This document shows positions 9,316 to 22,656 of a stretch of DNA of 35,989 nt, piece after piece. Below the pieces are notes generated by a model. The model did no database searches and had not been told where the DNA came from. It saw only the letters and a program-made list of their open reading frames with translations. Source of the stretch: Deltaproteobacteria bacterium. Lineage in GTDB: Bacteria; Desulfobacterota; Desulfarculia; Adiutricales; Adiutricaceae. Position 1 is the first letter of the stretch; every line of letters begins with the position of its first letter. The DNA lies in the NCBI GenBank assembly GCA_031254895.1, contig JAIRTO010000095.1, positions 1 through 35,989 of the forward strand, given 5' to 3'. The position numbers and the translations under genes were made by a program.

Positions 9316-9391
9316 TGGGGCGTCGTCAAGTGGTTAAGACACAGGGTTTTGGTTCCTGCATTCGAAGGTTCGAATCCTTCCGCCCCAGCCA
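9316..9391 (+). tRNA. tRNA-Gln (anticodon TTG)
   Basis: A complete 76-nt cloverleaf. The acceptor arm TGGGGCG (9316-9322) pairs with CGCCCCA (9381-9387); the discriminator is G and the CCA end is encoded. The anticodon stem CAGGG/TCCTG encloses the loop TTTTGGT, giving anticodon TTG for glutamine CAA codons. The T arm is GAAGG TTCGAAT CCTTC. The weak first pair (T-A) of the acceptor stem is typical of tRNA-Gln. It lies between ispE and prs. Confidence 0.97.
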
Positions 9392-16423: not shown

Positions 16424-18202
16424 TTAGAACAAGCCCTTGACTTTGCCGGTCGCGGTGTCGACGTCGACGCGGCGATAAGCCGGGTCGGAAGCGGTGCCAG
16501 GCATGAGAGTGATGGCCCCGGCGACGGGAACCACGAAGCCTGCGCCGGCATAGATGAGGACGTCGCGGACGAACAGTCTCCAGCCCTTGGGCACGCCCTT
16601 GATGGTGGGGTTGTCGGACAGAGACAGGTGAGTCTTGACCATGCACAGACCGAGGTTGGCGGTGGCGGGATCCTTCTGGAAGCCGTCGATCTTCTTGAGA
16701 GCGTCCGGGCTGTAGTCGACGCCGTCGGCCCCGTAGACCTCTTTGGCGATGACTTCGACGCGATCCTTGAGGGGCTGGTCGAGTTCGTAGAGGAACTTGA
16801 AGTTCGGCTTGTCGTTGCAGGCGTCTTTAACGGCCTCGGCCAGTTCGATGGCGCCTTCGCCGCCCTTCAGCCAGTGATCGGAAACGGCCACGCGGGCGCC
16901 GGCGTCCACGCAGGCTTTCTTAATGGCGTCGATCTCCTCTTTCGTGTCGGTGACGAAAGAGTTGATGCAGACGACCGGGCTGATGCCGGACTTCTTGACC
17001 ACGTTGACGTGGTGAACGAGGTTCTCGCAGCCCTTGACGACCTGGCCGACGTTAACTTGCTTGTATTCTTCGGGCAGGGGCTTGCCGGGAGCGGGAATCG
17101 GAGCTCCGCCGTGGCATTTAAGAGCCCTGACGGTGGCCACGATGACGGCGGCGTTGGGAACCAAGCCGGAGAAGCGGCATTTGAGGTTCCAGAACTTCTC
17201 GAAACCGATGTCGGCGGCGAAACCGGACTCGGTGACGTGGTAGTCGGCCAGCTTAAGAGCCAGACGGTCGGCCACGATGGAGCTCTGGCCGATGGCGATG
17301 TTGGCGAAGGGGCCGGCGTGCACGAAGCAGGGCTGGCCTTCCAAAGTCTGGAGCAGGTTGGGATTGAGAGCTTCGACCATCCAGGCGGTCATGGCGCCGG
17401 CGACGTCCAGATCTGAAGTGGTGACCGGTTTGCCTTTTTTGTCATAGGCGACGACGATGCGGCCCAGTCTGGCCCTCAAGTCTTTCAGATCAGAAGCGAC
17501 AGCCAGAATGGCCATAATTTCGGAGCTGACGGCGATGCCGAACTTGGATTCCATCAGATAGCCGTCTTGCTTGCCGCCGAGACCGATGATGATCTTGCGC
17601 AGACACTGGGCGGCGAAGTCCATGATGAAGCCGAACTCGACCCTGGTGGGATCGATGTCCAAACGCTTCAGACCGCGTTTTTCCAAAGTGGCGTCGTCGT
17701 AGTTGCGCTCATGCTGCATGCGGGAGTTGACGGCCACCATGCCCAAGTTGTGGGAGTTCATGATGGCGTTGATGTCGCCGGTGAGACCCAAGGAGAAGGG
17801 AGTCAGAGGAACGCACTGGCTCATGCCGCCGCCGGCCGCGGAGCCTTTGATGTTCATGGTCGGACCGCCGGAAGGCTGACGAATGGCGGCGGTGACGGAC
17901 AGGCCCAATTTTCCGAGGCCCTGCACCAGACCCATGGTGGTCGTGGATTTGCCTTCTCCCAAGGGAGTGGGGGTGATGGCGGTGACGTCAATATACTTGC
18001 CGTTGGGCTTGTCGGCCAAACGATCCAAAGCTCTGGCGTAGTCGATTTTGGCGATGTAGTGGCCATAAGGAAGGACTTCGTCGTCGGTGAGTCCCATTTT
18101 AGCGGCGACGTCTTTAATCTTGACGAGTTGCTTTTCAGCCGCTTCGGCGATTTCATAATCCTTGGCGCCTTTGCCAGTCAGTTCTTTCCAGTCTAAAGCC
18201 AT
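16424..18202 (-). CDS. fhs: Formate--tetrahydrofolate ligase
   Basis: Fhs joins formate to tetrahydrofolate with ATP, giving 10-formyl-THF. It is the entry step of the methyl branch of the Wood-Ljungdahl pathway and also supplies C1 units for purines. The 592-residue length is slightly above the usual 555-560. The nucleotide-binding loop [14 protein letters not shown] is near residues 78-91, followed by [19 protein letters not shown] and the ITLMPG segment near the C-terminus. GGAGGA lies just upstream of the ATG. The gene stands alone on its strand, with no folD, metF or acsB nearby, so the sequence does not reveal whether it acts in acetogenesis, formate oxidation or biosynthesis. A long structured leader or separate RNA lies upstream. 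Confidence 0.97.
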
Positions 18203-18295
18203 GAAGATTCCTCCGTAATTTGGAATACTTAAGTTTACTCCAGCCAGGGGTATTCAGCGGCCGGAGTTGGCTCGTGTCTTTCTAACCTGCCTCGG

Positions 18296-18325
18296 AAAAA
18301 AAGGCGCCGGCCGAAAGCCACCACC
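18296..18325 (-). terminator. Second intrinsic terminator in the fhs leader
   Basis: On the minus strand GGTGGTGGC (18325-18317) pairs with GCCGGCGCC (18311-18303): 9 bp with one mismatch and two G-T pairs. The loop is TTTCG and seven T follow. It lies about 95 nt upstream of the fhs start codon. Confidence 0.75.
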
Positions 18326-18365
18326 ATCGTGGTTGATCGAAAAAATGCGCTTGGAAGACGAGCCC

Positions 18366-18653
18366 TAGAAAAAAACGGAATTAGCGTCCGTTTGGTTCGG
18401 AGCGGACCCGTCGTTCAACGTGTAAAGCGAAGTTTGCCCCGCCAAAAGGCAAGGGCAATCCAACCCCTGAGCAAATCGGCCTCAGAGTTCGGGCCTGGAA
18501 AAGCGTAAGCTGCAGGCCTGCCGTTCAAAGTCTCGCCTGGCGCAATTTCGCCGCTGCAGTCAGCGAGCCCAGAAAAGACTTGAAGAACTAGCGATAATTT
18601 CAAAACAAAATGAGGCGCCCATTATTTGACAAGGCACTCGTGTTTCAAGCATG
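18366..18653 (-). ncRNA. Putative small RNA or attenuator leader upstream of fhs
   Basis: A transcript from the promoter at 18660-18687 would start near 18653 and end at the terminator at 18369-18393, giving about 285 nt. Hairpins I can see on the minus strand are a CTCGC/GCGAG stem enclosing GGCG/CGCC, a 9-bp bulged stem AACTCTGAG/CTCAGGGGTT, and TTGCCC/GGGCAA enclosing GCC/GGC. The only open frame (62 codons from a TTG) has no ribosome-binding site. I do not recognise 6S RNA, tmRNA, RNase P, SRP RNA, a T-box, or the ZTP riboswitch often found before fhs. It may be a stand-alone RNA or a riboswitch-like leader with premature termination. Confidence 0.5.
18369..18393 (-). terminator. First intrinsic terminator in the fhs leader
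   Basis: On the minus strand AAACGGA (18393-18387) pairs perfectly with TCCGTTT (18379-18373) around a 7-nt loop, followed by four more T. It lies about 170 nt upstream of the fhs start and would cut transcripts from the upstream promoter at about 285 nt. Confidence 0.75.
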
Positions 18654-18659
18654 GCCAAA

Positions 18660-18687
18660 AGTATAGCATAAGGGCGTTTTTTGTCAA
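18660..18687 (-). promoter_or_regulatory. Near-consensus sigma-70 promoter
   Basis: Minus strand: TTGACA (18687-18682), a 16-nt spacer, TATACT (18665-18660). It has a perfect -35 and one mismatch in the -10. It points toward fhs, whose start codon is about 450 nt away, with two terminators in between. Confidence 0.85.
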
Positions 18688-19394: not shown

Positions 19395-20618
19395 TCACTG
19401 AAACCGCAAAGCTTCGATGGGATTTTGCCGAGCCGCTTTCCAAGCCGGATAGAAGCCGAAGAAAAGACCGATGGCCGCCGAGACGGTGAAGGAGAGAATC
19501 ATGGAGGCGGGAGTGATCATGACCGAGGTTCGCCAGACGGCTTGAACCAGAAGAGCCCCGGAGGCGCCCGACAGCAAGCCCAGCAAGCCGCCGGTCAAGG
19601 AGACGAGCATGGCTTCGAGCATGAATTGGGTCTGAATGTCCTTCCGTCTGGCGCCGATGGCCAGGCGGATTCCTATTTCCCGCGTCCGCTCCGTGACGGA
19701 GACGAGCATGATGTTCATGATGCCGATGCCGCCGACGGCCAAAGAGACCGAGGCGATGGCCCCCAACAGGAGGGTCATGGCGGCGGCCGTGGCTTCGGCC
19801 GAGGCCATGACGGCCGAGAGGTTGTTCAAAAAGAAATCGTCGTCCTGCATGGGGTCGAGAATGTGGTGGCGCTCTCTCAGAAGGTCTCTGATGTCTTCTT
19901 CCAGTCTAGGCATTATGTCCGGGGTGACGGCCTTCAGCATGATCATGCGAACCATGCCTCTGAATTGGCTGCCGGCCAGGTAGCGTTGCGAGGAGGTGAG
20001 GGGGACTATGGCCGTGTCGTCCTGATCTCGGCCGTCCAGGCTTTGTCCTTTGGCGGCCAAAAGGCCCTCGACCAAAAAGGGCACGTTTTTGACCCGAACC
20101 GTCTGGCCCAAGGGATCAAGAGAGCCGAAGAGCTCCTTGGCGACGCTCTGGCCCAGCCAGATGGATCGGGAGGCGGTTTGGACGTCCAACTCGTCCATGG
20201 GCCGGCCAGCGGCCAGATCCCAGGATCTGACGGTCAGAAAGTCGCTGTTGACGCCCATGACCATGGTGTTCCAGTTTTGACCGCCGGCCACCATTTGGCT
20301 GTTGCTGTTGACGACCGGAGAGACGGCTTCCACTCCCTCCAGTTGGGCTAGAGCTTCGGCGTCGCTTTCGTTCAAGGTGTGGCGCGTTCCGGAGCCGGAG
20401 CGGGCGCCGGACGTGTTTTGGAAGCCGGCCAGAATGATGAAGACGTTGGTGCCTAAGCTGTCCACCTGTTTTTTGATGGTGACTCGGGTGCCTTCGCCTA
20501 CGGCCAGCATCAGGACGACGGCGGCGACGCCAATGACCATGCCCAGCATGGTCAGAAAGGAGCGCATTCTATTGGCGCCGATGGCTCTGACGGCTTCCAG
20601 GAGCATGGCGGAAAACAT
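19395..20618 (-). CDS. MacB-type ABC transporter permease (FtsX fold)
   Basis: A 407-residue inner-membrane permease of the MacB/LolC mechanotransmission class. An N-terminal transmembrane helix (about residues 20-43) is followed by a large periplasmic MacB_PCD domain. The FtsX domain comes next, with three helices near 275-300, 325-355 and 370-395, and contains the SVTERTREIGIRLAIGARR cytoplasmic loop typical of the family. In E. coli MacB the ATPase is fused to this part; here it is the separate gene upstream. The ATG lies 2 nt after the ATPase stop codon, with AGGAGG in the end of that gene, so the two are translationally coupled. The substrate is unknown; macrolide export should not be assumed from the name. 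Confidence 0.93.
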   Translation of the reverse strand: MFSAMLLEAVRAIGANRMRSFLTMLGMVIGVAAVVLMLAVGEGTRVTIKKQVDSLGTNVFIILAGFQNTSGARSGSGTRHTLNESDAEALAQLEGVEAVSPVVNSNSQMVAGGQNWNTMVMGVNSDFLTVRSWDLAAGRPMDELDVQTASRSIWLGQSVAKELFGSLDPLGQTVRVKNVPFLVEGLLAAKGQSLDGRDQDDTAIVPLTSSQRYLAGSQFRGMVRMIMLKAVTPDIMPRLEEDIRDLLRERHHILDPMQDDDFFLNNLSAVMASAEATAAAMTLLLGAIASVSLAVGGIGIMNIMLVSVTERTREIGIRLAIGARRKDIQTQFMLEAMLVSLTGGLLGLLSGASGALLVQAVWRTSVMITPASMILSFTVSAAIGLFFGFYPAWKAARQNPIEALRFQ

Positions 20619-20620
20619 TT

Positions 20621-21328
20621 TCAGAGCCTCCTGCGGTCTTCGATCGGCGCGTCTTCCACGATGAGACCGTCGTGAAATTTGACCAGACGTTTGGCGCAGG
20701 CGGCCACGTCCGGTTCGTGGGTGACCACGATCAAGGTCAAGCCCTGATCGTTCAATTCGCAGAAAAGACGCATTATTTCATCGCTGGTCTGGCTGTCCAG
20801 ATTGCCGGTCGGCTCGTCGGCCAGAACCAGATTGGGGCTGCCGGCCAGAGCCCTGGCTATGGCCGCCCTCTGCTGCTGACCGCCGGAGACCTGGCTGGGC
20901 CTATGCTTGGCCCAAGGGGAGAGTCCCACCTTGCCCAACATTTCCATGGCCCGGGCTCGTCTGACCGCGCCCGGCTGTTTGGCGTACAGGAGAGGCAGAC
21001 CGACGTTTTCCAGGAGATCGGCCCGAGGCAGAAGGTTGAAGCCTTGGAAGACGAAGCCCAGAAAGCGGTTGCGGCGGTTGGCCAGCTGGTCGGCGCTCAA
21101 AGAGCCGATTTCTTCGCCCAAGAGTCTGTATTCGCCGGAAGTCGGCACGTCCAGACAGCCTAAGATGTTCATGAAGGTGGACTTGCCCGAACCGGAGGGG
21201 CCCATGATGGCCACGAACTCGGCCGGCTCGATTTTGAAATCCACGCCGTGGAGAACTTCCAGATCCCCGGCTTCGGTGACGTAGGACTTTTTGAGAGCGT
21301 TCGTCTCTATGACTGTCTCGGCCGACAT
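20621..21328 (-). CDS. ABC transporter ATP-binding protein (MacB/LolD class)
   Basis: A 235-residue ATPase that powers the neighbouring permease. It has Walker A GPSGSGKST (about 44-52), a Q-loop in FVFQGFNLLPR, the signature VSGGQQQRAAIARALA, Walker B LVLADEPTG and the switch histidine in VVTHE. The ATG overlaps the adaptor stop codon by one base (TGATG), and AGGAGG lies inside the adaptor's last codons, which indicates an operon of adaptor, ATPase and permease. It belongs to the MacB/LolD/FtsE group by sequence pattern. Confidence 0.95.
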   Translation of the reverse strand: MSAETVIETNALKKSYVTEAGDLEVLHGVDFKIEPAEFVAIMGPSGSGKSTFMNILGCLDVPTSGEYRLLGEEIGSLSADQLANRRNRFLGFVFQGFNLLPRADLLENVGLPLLYAKQPGAVRRARAMEMLGKVGLSPWAKHRPSQVSGGQQQRAAIARALAGSPNLVLADEPTGNLDSQTSDEIMRLFCELNDQGLTLIVVTHEPDVAACAKRLVKFHDGLIVEDAPIEDRRRL

Positions 21329-22656
21329 CAGAACCTCCTGCGGCCGGGGGTCAAGAGAGTCCGATCGCCTTCCGGCTGGTTCTCGCCGATGACGACCATT
21401 TGGCCGGGCCGGAGATCTCCGGATCTGACTATGGTCTGGCGCAGGTCGGTCTGGCCCAGAGTCAGACCGACCATTTTGGGCTTGCCGTTCTCCAGCACGT
21501 ACACCCGGCCGTGAACTTCCTGAGAGTCCTGAAGCTGGTTTTCGGCCGCCTCCATGGGGGCGCCCCTGCCGCCGCCCCAGTGCCCGACGGCTCTGTCGCC
21601 GGTCCGTTCAGGGCTGGCGTCGGCGCGGGCCTGACCGTTCGGCGGCTCGTTTCGGAGGCCGTCGCCCGTCGGCCGCTCTTGCGGGGGCTCGGCCGCCGCA
21701 GCCGACGAGACCGAGGCGGCCTCTTCCGGCAGCTGATCGGAAGGGCGATAGTTCAGGGCCGAGTTGGGAACCAAAAGGACGTCGTTTTCGCGGTAAAGCT
21801 CTATGTCGACATAGGCGGTCATGCCGGGCAGGAGTTTTAGGTCGGGGTTGTCGACGTCTATGACCACGTCGTAGGTGACCACGTTGGAGGTGATGGTCGG
21901 GTTGAGGCGGATTTGGCGAAGCCGACCGGAAAAATTCTCGCCGGGGTAGGCGTCGACGGTGAAGACGACGTCCAGGCCGGGCGAGAGACGGCCTATGTCG
22001 GCTTCGGCGAAGCTGGCGTTGATTTGCATCTTGGTCAGATCGCCGGCTATGTCGATGAGGGTGGGGGTCTGAAAACTGGCGGCCACGGTTTGGCCGACGT
22101 CCACGGCTCTGTTGATGACCACGCCGTCCACGGGGGCCAGGATGCGGGTGTTGTTGAGATTGTAGATGTCCTGAGCCAGCGAGGCTTCATGCTGGGCCAC
22201 GCTGGCTTTGGCCATGGCCAGGTTGGCCGAAGCGACGTCGAACTCTTCCTTGGGGGCGGAGCCGTTTTTGTAGAGCTTTTCCTGACGGTCGTATTTTAGC
22301 TGGGCCAATTGAAGCTGGGCTTCCGAATTGGCCAGGTTGGCCCGGGACATGTCGGCTTTGGCTTGAAAGAGCTGATCGTCCAACACCATCAGCAGCTCGC
22401 CTTCTTTGACCGAATCGTTGAAATCGACCAGGATGTTTTTGATCGTCCCGGAAATCTGGGTGCCGACGTTGACGACCATGACCGGATTGATGGTGCCGGT
22501 GGCGCCTACGGCGATCCGGAGTTGTCCTTTATTTACTCGCTGAGCGCGATAGAAATTATCCACTTTTTGACGGGAGAACAGGTTGGGCAGAAAGAAGCCC
22601 AAGATAGCGAGGGCGAGGAGGGCAATGACAATTTTGGCCAGTTTTTTCGGCTTCAT
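21328..22656 (-). CDS. MacA/HlyD-type periplasmic adaptor (membrane fusion protein)
   Basis: A 442-residue adaptor linking the inner-membrane ABC pump to an outer-membrane TolC-type channel. An N-terminal anchor (about residues 5-26) is followed by the first half of a lipoyl-like domain (VNVGTQISGTIKNILVDFND). Next come an alpha-helical hairpin rich in Ala, Gln and Lys (about 105-170), the second lipoyl half (ILAPVDGVVINRAVDVGQTV) and a beta-barrel domain. An unusual low-complexity Pro/Glu/Ala/Gly-rich insert occupies about 305-375, just before the C-terminal segment. No outer-membrane TolC gene is in the window, so a partner elsewhere is needed. nnr lies 89 nt upstream on the same strand and may share the transcript. 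Confidence 0.93.
   Translation of the reverse strand: MKPKKLAKIVIALLALAILGFFLPNLFSRQKVDNFYRAQRVNKGQLRIAVGATGTINPVMVVNVGTQISGTIKNILVDFNDSVKEGELLMVLDDQLFQAKADMSRANLANSEAQLQLAQLKYDRQEKLYKNGSAPKEEFDVASANLAMAKASVAQHEASLAQDIYNLNNTRILAPVDGVVINRAVDVGQTVAASFQTPTLIDIAGDLTKMQINASFAEADIGRLSPGLDVVFTVDAYPGENFSGRLRQIRLNPTITSNVVTYDVVIDVDNPDLKLLPGMTAYVDIELYRENDVLLVPNSALNYRPSDQLPEEAASVSSAAAAEPPQERPTGDGLRNEPPNGQARADASPERTGDRAVGHWGGGRGAPMEAAENQLQDSQEVHGRVYVLENGKPKMVGLTLGQTDLRQTIVRSGDLRPGQMVVIGENQPEGDRTLLTPGRRRF

Follow-up and report, generated by a model that had tools for sequence, protein, structure and literature searches.

What occupies the long interval between a strong promoter and the fhs gene towards which it points? 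The question is raised by a stretch of 35,989 nt (the window) from a 3.5 Mb draft genome, in which fhs encodes a formate–tetrahydrofolate ligase of 592 aa. By fhs, the nearest named relatives are 'Deltaproteobacteria' MAGs, series that we take to be of termite-gut origin, and Candidatus Adiutrix. In the Wood-Ljungdahl pathway, Fhs is the enzyme through which formate enters the methyl branch. Since an acetyl-CoA synthase (CdhC) is encoded in the window's genome, as in most of its family, fhs is probably a core gene of this carbon pathway here. Little seems to be known about the regulation of the methyl branch in gut bacteria. An initial annotation had read the interval 18296–18687 as a probable small RNA or attenuated leader before fhs.

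Promoter and conservation of the fhs leader

The gene and its promoter are located as follows.

16424–18202, minus strand: fhs, assigned by Pfam PF01268 (FTHFS, E 1.7e-228) and PDB relatives
18660–18687, minus strand: promoter TTGACA-N16-TATACT with an extended -10 TG, found by a consensus scan; inferred transcription start ~18653

The near-consensus promoter that had been reported about 450 nt from fhs was confirmed at 18687–18660, with the end of its -10 element 457 nt from the fhs start and a leader of ~450 nt. No other site on either strand of the 36 kb window reached at least 11 of 12 consensus matches. The flank TGAAAAA.TTCTTGACA was kept together with the promoter in seven same-genus sequences, and the same kind of promoter was located 345–684 nt 5′ of fhs in genera g1, g3, g4 and g11, a range covering all examined members whose contig reaches fhs. 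In genus g6 (Ca. Adiutrix; L013 and L014), a TTGACA promoter was kept before fhs with a short leader of 138–166 nt, which carries another hairpin (CACAACC/GGTTGTG) and no P2 loop of the kind described below. Further upstream of the leader lies a MacB-like ABC export operon (19398–22656, minus strand) comprising an FtsX/MacB permease, an ATPase and an HlyD-type adaptor.

Of 40 relatives, 38 yielded an fhs gene, and the DNA preceding it was extracted for alignment. Identity over the 190 nt that precede the promoter was 67.9%, against 69.3% for shuffled sequence; it was 81% at the promoter and 85% over the last 125 nt before the gene (domain E2). Fourfold-degenerate sites of fhs itself were 64–69% identical within the genus and 46–56% identical to most other genera. 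Conservation therefore starts sharply at the promoter, indicating selection on the leader. The interval 18296–18687 does hold the promoter and an upstream domain (E1, 18588–18434), but the best-conserved part of the leader, E2 at 18202–18330, falls mostly outside it.

Folding of the 288-nt segment was modestly more stable than that of shuffled sequences (z -1.78), so the GC-rich hairpins noted earlier hold up in a weaker form than stated, and single-sequence folding could not have settled the question. Comparative folding upstream of fhs in relatives, which had been suggested as a check, revealed compensatory changes in hairpin P2, the E1 hairpins and helix P0. No conserved reading frame was found in the window or in the relatives' sequences, in agreement with the earlier judgement that the segment has no credible coding frame. 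At the level of sequence comparison, the promoter, E1 and E2 are thus conserved, folded (as judged by covariation) and specific to fhs. The general mark of riboswitches, a conserved structured leader fixed to the gene of one pathway, is found here.

Two structured domains

E2, read on the minus strand, consists of a stem, a hairpin and, over the Shine-Dalgarno sequence, a second, weak hairpin.

18268–18326, minus strand: stem P1, TGGTGGTGGCTTTC / GAAAGACACGAGCCA, with a conserved internal bulge; matched by model R2
18238–18266, minus strand: hairpin P2, CTCCGGCC-(GCTGAATACCCCT)-GGCTGGAG, with a conserved loop; compensatory pairs
18207–18226, minus strand: weak hairpin AUUCC/GGAAU over the Shine-Dalgarno GGAGG (18214–18210); conserved in sequence

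The loop of P2 comprises 13 nt; most species have GYUGAWGANCCCU here, and the window has GCUGAAUACCCCU. Among 13 sequences, six of the seven P2 pairs changed on both sides while 94% of cells remained paired, and this signal collapsed once the partners were slid. Support for P1 came mostly from one-sided changes. The Shine-Dalgarno hairpin showed a shifted pairing register in other genera, and compensatory changes, looked for over the 13 sequences, were not seen in it. A pseudoknot or anti-Shine-Dalgarno pairing by the CUCC of P2 is available in some g1 members; it was rejected as a conserved pairing because it is lost in L007, L008 and L010–L012.

Two covariance models were built, R1 from P2 and the Shine-Dalgarno sequence and R2 from P1 and P2, the latter with the window left out. 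R1 recovered one strong copy (E<1e-9) per genome in 15 genomes, every copy directly 5′ of fhs; matches outside the training set were those in G001 and G030, plus one in G006 that is truncated where its contig stops (E 0.0019). R2 recovered the window's copy in a whole-genome search (E 1.3e-7), and a leave-one-out nhmmer sequence profile found E2 at E 1.1e-11. The exact P2 loop pattern gave eight matches, all at fhs. Searches for R1-type copies outside the family returned nothing convincing, and within it the fhs genes of Ca. Adiutrix (g6), g2, g8 and g9 were present without P2 in the R1 search. P2-type copies away from fhs were limited to weak matches (E>=0.0155), none near another recognised fhs copy, and were taken as chance. 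In L124 and L135, the spacer between E1 and P1 contained a second P1-like hairpin, possibly a duplicated element (in L135 at 249–323, E 0.026).

E1 is common to six same-genus species, in which hairpin A, CGAA, hairpin B, GGYUGGA and hairpin C follow in this order and the long-range helix P0 closes the domain. Its parts in the window, together with the two terminator-like sites named in the initial annotation, are listed below.

18523–18588, minus strand: helix P0 (5′ arm 18588–18582, 3′ arm 18529–18523), from single-sequence folds and compensatory changes
18492–18518, minus strand: hairpin A, 93% of cells paired, four of ten pairs changed on both sides
18464–18491, minus strand: CGAA and hairpin B, 98% of cells paired, then the conserved GGYUGGA
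18434–18458, minus strand: hairpin C at the terminator position, with a TTTTGTCTT tail in relatives and ACTTCGCTTT only in the window
18369–18408, minus strand: intrinsic terminator AAACGGA..TCCGTTT-T overlapping a rival stem GTCCG/CGGAC; window-specific
18296–18326, minus strand: second site resembling a terminator, ..GGCCGGCGCC-T7, found only in the window, where it overlaps P1 on the 5′ strand of that stem

P0 encloses a partly conserved GACTGCAGCGGCGA stretch (18561–18548), and in the excised arms its pairs compensate between species, with G-C, A-U and C-G at one pair. The letters flanking hairpin B are conserved in the six species; in L135 (G006) this hairpin has grown by ~55 nt through tandem GCGAATAGGCGAAA repeats. 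The E1 covariance model R3, with the window in its training set, found a single strong match per genome in these six species, in every case 5′ of fhs. Left out, the window's E1 was weak on sequence alone (E 0.012). The window's own E1 is the less secure for this and for two structural points: P0 forms only the first four of its seven pairs, and hairpin C is without a good U-tract. Five same-genus species carry hairpin C with its tail, whereas the window combines a weak tail with a nearby private terminator. A rival helix between the 3′ strand of hairpin A and GGYUGG was paired in 95% of cells with no compensatory change. As a possible antiterminator, the 5′ strand of hairpin A can pair with the 5′ arm of the terminator perfectly in L124 and L135 and in part in the window, L006 and L009, but not in L008; this pairing is not claimed.

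Both reported intrinsic terminators were found, but neither is conserved: the hairpin at 18393–18369 sits in an insertion absent from relatives, and the relatives have no T-run at 18326–18296. Unlike these two, the terminator-like hairpin at 18458–18434 is common to the genus. An RNA running from ~18653 to the T-run at 18369 would measure 285 nt by arithmetic on the predicted ends, as had been calculated for the first terminator. Over a 4.5 kb region, 10 terminator-like sites were found against 5.4 expected. The place and quality of terminators vary between species.

Proposed control of fhs and rival explanations

We consider it fairly likely that the fhs 5′ leader is a cis-acting attenuator combined with a translational switch, throttling Fhs at two points. 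The conserved promoter and two covarying domains, present once per genome, only before fhs and unmatched in Rfam, give good support to a new regulatory RNA tied to fhs and accord with the attenuated-leader side of the original proposal. A strong, probably constitutive promoter would start every fhs transcript. Many transcripts may end at a terminator in the E1 region, yielding RNAs of ~200–300 nt (285 nt predicted in the window), and read-through would be set by which E1 pairing wins. In the full-length RNA, E2 (P1 and P2) could sense a signal right next to the ribosome-binding site, its state setting ribosome access to the weakly paired Shine-Dalgarno sequence. From gene context only, the likeliest signal may be a metabolite of folate or one-carbon metabolism (THF, formyl-THF or formate) or a purine intermediate, in which case the leader would be a riboswitch; binding of a protein, for example Fhs itself, to the P2 loop would give rise to the same architecture.

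More tentatively, and with somewhat less than even confidence, we propose that P1 and P2 with the loop GYUGAWGANCCCU form a new riboswitch class in Adiutricaceae-type bacteria that responds to a folate or a one-carbon metabolite and, with the upstream attenuator, provides two-stage control of fhs in carriers of the Wood-Ljungdahl pathway. The RNA is compact, confined to fhs, supported by covariation and unmatched in Rfam, and as a riboswitch candidate it can be put to a direct test; knowing the ligand would reveal what these organisms sense to set pathway flux.

The main rival is a protein ligand for E2, in which P2, with or without the Shine-Dalgarno sequence, would be a site for Fhs autoregulation or for CsrA/RsmA repression at GGA rather than a metabolite aptamer. 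Protein sites typically look like this, a simple hairpin whose loop is fixed and whose stem is free to vary in sequence, and GGA recurs, as CUGGA in E1, CUGGAG in P2 and ACGGAGG at the Shine-Dalgarno; however, GGA occurs in any Shine-Dalgarno sequence, and the combination of P1 and P2, with its conserved internal bulge and its loop of 13 nt, exceeds most CsrA sites in complexity. We regard a protein site as unlikely on balance.

As for the small RNA of the original proposal, it is rather improbable that the terminated 5′ part (~200–300 nt) works mainly as a trans-acting RNA whose position before fhs is incidental. It would account for the unit having its own strong promoter, structured body and terminator, yet the unit is single-copy and always before fhs, its most conserved domain runs on to the fhs Shine-Dalgarno sequence, and 6S RNA was unmatched in all seven genomes searched. 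An ordinary long 5′ UTR, with the motifs serving as DNA operators or mRNA-stability elements, appears slightly less probable again. Operators can take the form of inverted repeats close to a start codon, but P2 lies ~400 nt downstream of the promoter, and the operator reading is rejected because compensating changes fall in the half-sites of P2 and the loop stays constant, the opposite of what an operator would show. A role in mRNA stabilisation alone is kept as a minor possibility. A leader-peptide attenuator starting at the conserved ATGGTGGTGGCTTTC is very improbable: ATG GTG GTG GCT or a near variant occurs in seven same-genus sequences, but it lacks a preceding Shine-Dalgarno sequence, L003, L004 and L015 have no ATG at that place, and the reading is rejected because the frames differ, stopping after 7, 9 or 30 codons or running into or past fhs in differing frames.

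Comparison with known RNA families

The covariance-model search against Rfam that the initial annotation had recommended was run on the window's leader and the relatives' leaders at gathering thresholds and at E<=10, and gave chance matches only; no family was matched in either. The only match in the window at the gathering threshold was a tRNA-Gln (TTG) at 9316–9391 on the plus strand. The ZTP (pfl) riboswitch often regulates fhs (PMC2864571). Its model (RF01750) matched none of the 37 genomes of the family, while matching two control genomes, and was absent from the leader scans, consistent with the earlier remark that the segment resembles none of the familiar RNA classes, ZTP included.

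6S RNA, which adjoins a folate gene in gammaproteobacteria, resembles the fhs leader in its strong promoter and length of ~200 nt. It differs in being a closed rod with a central bubble, whereas E1 folds as separate hairpins and the leader is not rod-like. The model RF00013 gave no match at E<=1 in seven g1 draft genomes, with controls matching; 6S may have been lost in these drafts or be too divergent for the model.

One other fhs-linked candidate is described in the literature, the fhsA motif (WRC-63-1), a weak riboswitch candidate 5′ of fhs in Leptotrichia and environmental DNA that consists of one hairpin and a terminator hairpin, with a proposed pseudoknot (PMC11109978). Its published description and its known taxa, to which the window's genome does not belong, would set it apart from the fhs leader. 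The THF-I riboswitch resembles the proposed fhs leader as a folate-sensing leader; RF01831 had no match in the genome search, in which control genomes were silent too, or in cmscan. THF-II (folE motif, RF02977), like the fhs leader, is a small RNA by the ribosome-binding site of a folate gene. It matched none of seven genomes at E<=1, a search in which controls matched only below the cut-off, and gave no cmscan match. THF-II is a rod with conserved bases in the internal loop between P1 and P2 and the ribosome-binding site inside P1 (PMC9881143), whereas the fhs leader holds its conserved bases in the terminal loop of P2 and its ribosome-binding site outside P2, a different structure from that of THF-II. 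Set beside these systems, the fhs leader is probably a structured RNA of its own, matching no Rfam family and serving as a built-in switch for this one gene.
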